DNA of 6,225 nucleotides. It comes from JALSIF01 sp026981635 [NCBI: bacterium] (GTDB lineage: Bacteria > 4484-113 > JALSIF01). Positions 5,693 through 6,225 of the stretch are shown here, piece by piece (the first letter of the stretch is position 1; each line of letters starts with the position of its first letter). The notes beneath the pieces were generated by a model that worked only from the letters and a program-made list of their open reading frames with translations, was not told the origin of the DNA and did no database searches. The DNA is taken from positions 1-6,225 of the forward strand of contig JALSIF010000023.1 in the NCBI GenBank assembly GCA_026981635.1, read 5' to 3'. Position numbers and translations under genes: made by a program.

Positions 5693-5718
5693 AGTTTCCC
5701 CCGTAAACCCCCCCCAAG

Positions 5719-5760
5719 GCGGGGCCTCCTAACCCCCCGGGAGGCCCCGCTCCCTTTTTT
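5719..5760 (+). terminator. Intrinsic terminator of groESL
   Basis: GCGGGGCCTCC (5719-5729) and GGAGGCCCCGC (5740-5750) form a perfect 11-bp stem with a 10-base loop, followed after four bases by six T (5755-5760). It lies 42 bases after the groEL stop and is a textbook Rho-independent terminator. Confidence 0.92.
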
Positions 5761-5778
5761 ATCCCCCCACCAGACGGG

Positions 5779-5860
5779 GGCCAAAAAGGAGCCAGGAGGG
5801 GCGGCCAAAATCACCCCTCGGGCGGCCAGAGGGGCCAAAAAGGGGCCGTTTTTGGCCCCT
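5779..5860. repeat. GGCCAAAA-rich inverted-repeat block
   Basis: GGCCAAAA occurs at 5779, 5803 and 5833 and as its complement in TTTTTGGCC (5849-5857). The last two form a perfect 12-bp stem, 5830-5841 with 5849-5860, around a 7-base loop. A mutually exclusive 7-bp hairpin, AGGGGCC (5841-5847) with GGCCCCT (5854-5860), uses the same right arm. GGGCGGCCA is also repeated directly in this block. Six T occur 11 bases after the stem (5872-5877), which is distant for a terminator; the A5 and T5 arms could make it act in either direction. Confidence 0.55.
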
Positions 5861-5875
5861 GGCTCTATCAATTTT

Positions 5876-5884
5876 TTGTCCACA
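5876..5884 (+). promoter_or_regulatory. DnaA-box-like 9-mer
   Basis: TTGTCCACA matches the common form TT(A/G)TCCACA of the DnaA box at all nine positions, at the left border of an AT-rich island. No other good copy is seen nearby, so it does not by itself make an origin. Confidence 0.3.
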
Positions 5885-5939
5885 AAATATCAACATATCC
5901 ATATTTTCTGGTGTATTCTGGTCCTGTTGATATGTGTTG
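5884..5939. repeat. AT-rich island with nested repeats upstream of the RNA promoter
   Basis: AAAATAT (5884-5890) is complementary to ATATTTT (5901-5907). TATCAACA (5888-5895) is perfectly complementary to TGTTGATA (5925-5932). TTCTGGT occurs twice, at 5906-5912 and 5916-5922, exactly 10 bases (about one helical turn) apart and between the arms of the second inverted repeat. The arrangement, centred about 60 bases before the -35 at 5974, looks like a protein-binding region for the downstream promoter. Confidence 0.45.
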
Positions 5940-5941
5940 AG

Positions 5942-6003
5942 AAAAAAAGTTTGGAGAATTTTGCCAAAAGGTCTTGACAAGGCATTGAGGGGTGTGGTAG
6001 AAA
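5942..6003 (+). promoter_or_regulatory. Strong sigma70-type promoter with A/T-tracts upstream
   Basis: TTGACA (5974-5979) is a perfect -35. The -10 TAGAAA (5998-6003) follows after 18 bases and is preceded by TG one base away (5995-5996), making an extended -10. A/T tracts at 5942-5948, 5957-5962 and 5966-5969 fit an UP element, as seen at stable-RNA promoters. Transcription should begin near G6010, exactly where the first base-paired segment of the putative RNA starts. Confidence 0.65.
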
Positions 6004-6009
6004 TAGGGT

Positions 6010-6225
6010 GGCACGCCAAGGGTGGTGAGGTGAGCTACTGGGATATCCCCGGCGTGCCGAGGGGACCCAGTAGCGAGGGCAGAGGCACCGACCACCCGCC
6101 GAGAGGGGATCTGGGTCGGATCCCTCTACGGAGGGAAGCGGTCCAGGTCCTGGGGGAAGCTCCCTAAGGAGCCAACCCCAAGGGAGGGCGATCCTTCGGG
6201 AGAGCCCTGCTGAGGGGAAGGTTCC
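6010..6225 (+). ncRNA. Candidate structured non-coding RNA or long leader, class unknown (cut by window edge)
   Basis: No convincing gene is seen here, but the sequence is dense in stems. GCTACTGGG (6034-6042) pairs perfectly with CCCAGTAGC (6066-6074). TCCCTC (6121-6126) and GAGGGA (6131-6136) close a C-UACG-G tetraloop. AGGGC (6185-6189) pairs with GCCCT (6204-6208), then a tandem G-A/G-A step and TCC/GGA under a C-UUCG-G tetraloop. Outside this, GGAGCC-AA-CCCC (6168-6179) pairs with GGGG-AA-GGTTCC (6214-6225), one G-T wobble included, ending at the last base of the window. Both tetraloops belong to the exceptionally stable UNCG class, which strongly suggests selection at the RNA level. RNase P RNA, tmRNA, 6S RNA and rRNA hallmarks are absent. 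A large SRP RNA or a leader of a gene beyond the edge cannot be excluded. Confidence 0.55.

Follow-up and report, generated by a model that had tools for sequence, protein, structure and literature searches.

A strongly folded, probably non-coding candidate RNA behind a plausible promoter at a contig end in a draft bacterial genome

The last 216 nucleotides of contig C23 raise the question of what kind of transcript they specify. An initial annotation had described them as a GC-rich structured RNA behind a strong promoter and had considered a new stable RNA, a very divergent known RNA and a regulatory leader. The window, i.e. the whole stretch of DNA analysed, is the complete contig of 6225 bases, which belongs to a draft genome of 317 contigs and 1.75 Mb that is 85% complete. 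Because the window is the whole contig, the RNA is cut at position 6225 and its true extent lies beyond. The contig carries, in this order, an LpxB fragment and a hexapeptide-repeat protein (both on the minus strand), a protein at 1031-2143 for which no match was found in Pfam, citrate synthase, and two genes that, from their sequence, we take to be groES and groEL. A scan of named genomes for citrate synthase yielded 60 loci with a top identity of 57%, in collections that may lack the records closest to the window's genome.

The terminator behind groEL (Table 1) sets the RNA apart from the groES-groEL operon upstream. Three copies of a GGGGCCAAAA-like unit (window positions 5776-5860) and a hairpin (5830-5844/5846-5860) lie between this terminator and the promoter. 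Further downstream, the repeat search returned an imperfect 24-nt inverted repeat (5872-5895/5925-5948, 75% complementary), and TTGTCCACA, which occurs within 5872-5948 directly upstream of the promoter, is presumably DnaA-box-like. The only other DNA similarity within the genome involved 29 bases around the -35 element (5953-5981), which showed 90% identity to contig C46 (L002 1501-1529); there, the similar stretch precedes two reading frames that, by eye, resemble related membrane proteins.

Table 1. Features of the promoter region and of the candidate RNA, in window coordinates.
Feature	Position	Strand	Basis
Terminator downstream of groEL: hairpin of 13 pairs, then a T run	5718..5751	+	terminator scan; inverted repeat I5
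AT-rich stretch (by eye) upstream of promoter, possible UP element	5872..5973	+	sequence
-35 element TTGACA, 6/6 consensus	5974..5979	+	sequence, pattern match
Extended -10: TGG, then TAGAAA (5998-6003); 18-nt spacer from -35	5995..6003	+	pattern match, spacer comparison
Structured, probably non-coding RNA; start near 6010 placed from the -10; 3' end missing	6010..6225	+	fold, genomic control, coding scores
UGGCACGCC (5' end) and GGCGUGCCG (domain 1), complementary: 9 pairs, 8 Watson-Crick	6009-6017 and 6051-6059	+	
Domain 1	6020..6097	+	mean pair probabilities 0.72-1.0
Domain 2: 13-bp helix, 2x2 internal loop, 6-bp helix, UACG tetraloop	6106..6151	+	mean pair probabilities 0.96, 1.0
Domain 3: rod with AA/AA loop, GA/GA step, UUCG tetraloop	6168..6225	+	mean pair probabilities 0.997-1.0

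Folding of positions 6008-6225 (GC about 0.67-0.68) gave -122.7 kcal/mol, or -0.56 kcal/mol per nt, compared with an average of -97.6 (SD 4.7) across 200 dinucleotide-shuffled sequences, none of which was as good (z = -5.29). Repeat shuffles gave z = -5.86 for 216 nt and z = -4.75 for 218 nt. The description as a structured GC-rich RNA behind a promoter was largely upheld. As a genomic control, 218-nt windows were scanned across 24 loci that make up about 10% of the same genome, together with the window and the target. These folds were run on DNA letters, which gave -120.0 for the target instead of -122.7 and treated all windows alike. After correction for GC content, the target ranked 3rd of 3070 strand-windows and its reverse complement 824th. 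The first rank was taken by the minus strand of L112 (1-218) at a contig start, the second by a stretch at the terminator behind the 23S rRNA gene, and the fifth by the minus strand of L108 (4143-4360), which by eye resembles a thiamin-pyrophosphate riboswitch. The scan thus catches real RNA, but a high rank by itself is no proof.

The predicted fold consists of three separate domains, which retained z scores of -4.4 to -5.7 when cut out after folding. At least four strong hairpins had been claimed for the region; the three domains are strong, but the fourth hairpin (6151-6166) showed pair probabilities of about 0.3. Domain 1 is built from three outer helices (6020-6026/6091-6097, 6029-6032/6086-6089, 6034-6042/6066-6074) and two inner ones (6046-6049/6061-6064, 6050-6052/6057-6059). 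Both UNCG loops of the initial annotation were recovered (C-UACG-G at 6127-6130 and C-UUCG-G at 6195-6198), as were the tandem GA step (6190-6191 with 6202-6203) and the AA/AA loop (6174-6175 with 6218-6219). The helix that contains the AA/AA loop had been said to close at the window end; it stops where the contig stops, and domain 3 may continue past that point. Pairing of UGGCACGCC with GGCGUGCCG would form a possible pseudoknot or alternative hairpin, and their complementarity may be due to chance.

The reading frames through the region had been judged protein-unlike. This was largely confirmed by codon scores, which were at or below -0.097 in all six frames. As coding reference, 81 slices of five window genes, which were also used to train the score, had a median of +0.56 and 5th and 1st percentiles of +0.17 and -0.55. 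The best frame (plus strand, frame 1, -0.097) holds a stop, and one minus-strand frame is open throughout the target. No Pfam family matched the long frames (77 and 111 amino acids) at E values up to 1. On the basis of the poor codon scores and the absence of a Pfam match, protein coding was rejected, with the reservation that the best frame scored higher than the 95th percentile (-0.12) for shuffled versions of the target.

The promoter had been called near-ideal, a description that fits its -35 element but not its -10 element, since TAGAAA matches the Escherichia coli consensus at four of six positions. A sigma-70 scan omitted the promoter because its -10 element lacks the final T. The promoter of the genome's own 23S rRNA gene shares with it the 18-nt spacer, TGTGG ahead of the -10 element and identical bases at 11 of the 18 spacer positions (p = 0.003 by permutation and 0.012 when TG was left out, in a comparison chosen after both sequences had been seen). 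The promoter looks like that of a stable RNA, without an indication of which RNA. The target carries the rRNA-type promoter pattern, which was itself derived from the target and 23S promoters. A search with this pattern, allowing up to three mismatches, yielded no third site in 144 pieces of the genome (0.90 Mb, 52% of the genome), and a looser pattern yielded one further site in the 0.90 Mb covered. TAGAAT was found upstream of the genes for tmRNA, RNase P RNA and SRP RNA (L125, L126, L127) and of four out of 16 tRNAs, but TTGAC[AC] at 15-19 nt ahead of TAGAA[AT] was absent from these other stable RNAs of the genome. GGTAGAA[AT] occurred 33 times in 0.90 Mb. As judged from sequence, the likeness of the -10 element to those of the genome's stable-RNA genes appears loose, and the promoter as a whole appears plausible and in keeping with the lineage.

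Searches against known RNA families bore out the statement that the RNA class could not be recognised. At the gathering score, Rfam gave no match in the window. When truncated matches and E values up to 10 were allowed (Rfam 15), only three vertebrate families appeared, all on the minus strand and at chance level (E = 2.5-7.4; 12-15 bits versus gathering scores of 50-66). The proposal of a very divergent known RNA was weakened for four classes by copies elsewhere in the genome: RNase P RNA, tmRNA and SRP RNA gave no match in the window and were found above the cut-off on C306, C299 and C158, respectively, while 23S rRNA is encoded on another contig. A search for tRNA or tmRNA within the window found none. 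Readings as a retron, an HDV-like element or a group II intron were rejected, as none had a match in Rfam. A plasmid or phage origin was likewise rejected after blastn gave no match and two patterns gave no exact match in viral contigs, in collections from which near records may have been left out.

No homologue outside the genome itself was found in a DNA search of 40 genomes, in a search of ten genomes of the class with a one-sequence model at E values up to 1, or in a search of 385 genomes with the same model at E values up to 0.01 and stricter filters, each set including the genome itself. The widest set comprised 384 other genomes, nine of them from the same class as the target, and the model was built from two copies of the single sequence. 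Two weak additional matches within the genome (E = 0.013 and 0.73) were taken as chance, for the first after the surrounding 500 bases had been read by eye; on ten chosen loci the model gave seven matches (E = 0.12-7.1). The idea of a conserved RNA behind groEL was rejected, since by eye no similar element was seen there in nine flanks from the class (285-700 bases, one of only 285). With no homologue found, these searches offer neither covariation nor a sign of conservation. Their negative outcome is weak evidence, because a model built on one sequence has little sensitivity and the filters of the widest search were stricter. An RNA that is widely needed would be expected to leave traces elsewhere in the class, and this counts against a free RNA.

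The fold, the weak coding signal, the resemblance between promoters and the absence from Rfam were computed directly, and they support a transcript that folds, probably does not code for protein and follows a plausible promoter. We consider it somewhat short of an even chance, but more probable than any other reading, that the target is the 5' part of a stable, independently transcribed non-coding RNA that belongs to no described family; this part spans at least 216 nt. RNA polymerase would start near 6010, from a promoter resembling that of the genome's own 23S rRNA and with a -10 element similar to the one at its other stable-RNA genes. The groEL terminator would insulate the RNA from the upstream operon. 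The start site, transcription itself and independence from a downstream gene are what we infer from this arrangement. Unaided, the transcript would form three GC-rich domains, of which two have UNCG caps, and should therefore be long-lived.

Ranked behind such a free RNA is an atypical leader of 16S rRNA, a serious rival that the initial annotation had not named and that we regard as unlikely, though far from negligible. According to this proposal, the target is a long and folded leader that belongs to the 16S rRNA gene, which is unlinked and missing from the assembly: transcription would start at the rRNA-type promoter, the hairpins would form in the precursor, and the leader would be removed during rRNA maturation. 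The contig, which ends 216 nt past the predicted start, would have broken at 6225 because the 16S rRNA gene failed to assemble. In agreement with this proposal, no 16S rRNA match was found in the assembly among the candidates scored (26 of 46 from a first look). The 23S rRNA gene of the genome (L124, 11627-14639) has its own promoter-like stretch and a boxA-like leader, and no 16S rRNA gene was found within 11.7 kb before it. In the class, the two loci with a complete 16S rRNA gene (L003 and L004) showed no 23S rRNA gene within 1.5 kb behind it. The 16S and 23S rRNA genes thus appear to be unlinked in this class, so that each needs its own promoter. The match between the spacers of the target and the 23S promoter also favours a leader. 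Five 16S leaders from the class, with starts set by eye, gave z scores of -2.7 to -5.5, and one of them was 224 nt long. With apparently unlinked rRNA genes and strongly folded leaders in the class, a 16S leader is a natural reading of the target.

Several observations argue against this assignment. A CTTGAAAGC-like motif, which presumably corresponds to the boxA of rRNA antitermination, was present 61-134 nt after the -35 element in all six comparators (the five 16S leaders of the class and the genome's own 23S leader), but was absent, at up to two mismatches, from the 252 nt here, counted from the start of the -35 element; the motif was chosen after those leaders had been read, and in the target it could lie beyond the contig end. 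The window contained no ACCTTGAAAGCTGG within three mismatches. The distance from the -35 element to the conserved start of 16S rRNA was 169-187 nt in four of the five class loci and 262 nt in the remaining one, while the target runs for 252 nt without reaching 16S rRNA. The one-sequence model did not match the five class 16S loci at E values up to 10, and the genome's own 23S leader is not strongly folded (z = -1.35). By eye, groEL was not seen upstream of 16S rRNA in five 700-base flanks, and the nine groEL flanks (285-700 bases) likewise showed no 16S rRNA. The target was not classed as a leader because the boxA-like motif and a model match were absent and because 16S rRNA was not reached where it is in four out of five relatives.

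A further reading, to which we give a small but real chance, is that of a 5' untranslated leader of a protein operon, either an autoregulatory leader or an undescribed riboswitch, whose gene lies past the contig end. The contig stops before any gene downstream of the target, and the riboswitch-like element at rank 5 of the stability scan suggests that long folded leaders occur in this genome. Against a protein-operon leader stand the absence of any riboswitch or leader match in Rfam and the resemblance of the promoter to that of 23S rRNA. No terminator-like site was listed on the plus strand after 5754, although one could lie past the contig end. That the target is no functional RNA at all, but a GC-rich intergenic stretch, a decayed sequence or an artefact of assembly at the contig end, we consider least probable: the lack of conservation in the searched genomes, the coincidence of contig end and helix end and the higher rank of the L112 stretch would fit, but z scores of about -5 with strong strand asymmetry, the stability of the excised domains and a promoter that fits the lineage argue otherwise.

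If the target is a free RNA, its rod-like domains would, as a guess, suit protein binding or a role as scaffold more than the sensing of a metabolite. The fuller proposal is doubtful: that the RNA represents a new class, has several structured domains, is restricted to its lineage and is transcribed independently from an rRNA-like promoter, in a bacterial family that has been sparsely sampled. A free RNA would mean that a poorly sampled bacterial class has an RNA outside the described families that folds strongly and is probably abundant. A 16S leader, on the other hand, would be unusually long and would so far lack the boxA-like motif seen in its relatives, in a group with seemingly unlinked rRNA genes.

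Among known systems, 6S RNA (RF00013) forms one long rod with a central bubble. The target resembles it in length class and strong promoter. The 6S covariance model nevertheless gave no match, and the target forms three separate domains, with closing pairs out of view because the 3' end is missing. The rRNA leaders of the class and the genome's own 23S leader (L003-L007, L124) share with the target an rRNA-type promoter and local hairpins soon after the start, but all six carry the boxA-like motif at most 134 nt from the -35 element and their GC content is 0.41-0.62, compared with 0.68 in the target. Upstream of the 16S rRNA gene in one class relative (L005), the reading frame resembles, by eye, the C-terminal end of a Clp chaperone. 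RNase P RNA, tmRNA and SRP RNA of the same genome are encoded on other contigs, and their covariance models find no match in the window. They share with the target a similar -10 region, which reads TAGAAT in these genes and TAGAAA in the target. In composition and stability, the three are near the target (0.67, -0.56): GC content and folding energy per nt are 0.68 and -0.49 kcal/mol for RNase P RNA, 0.69 and -0.52 kcal/mol for tmRNA, and 0.74 and -0.54 kcal/mol for the small SRP RNA.
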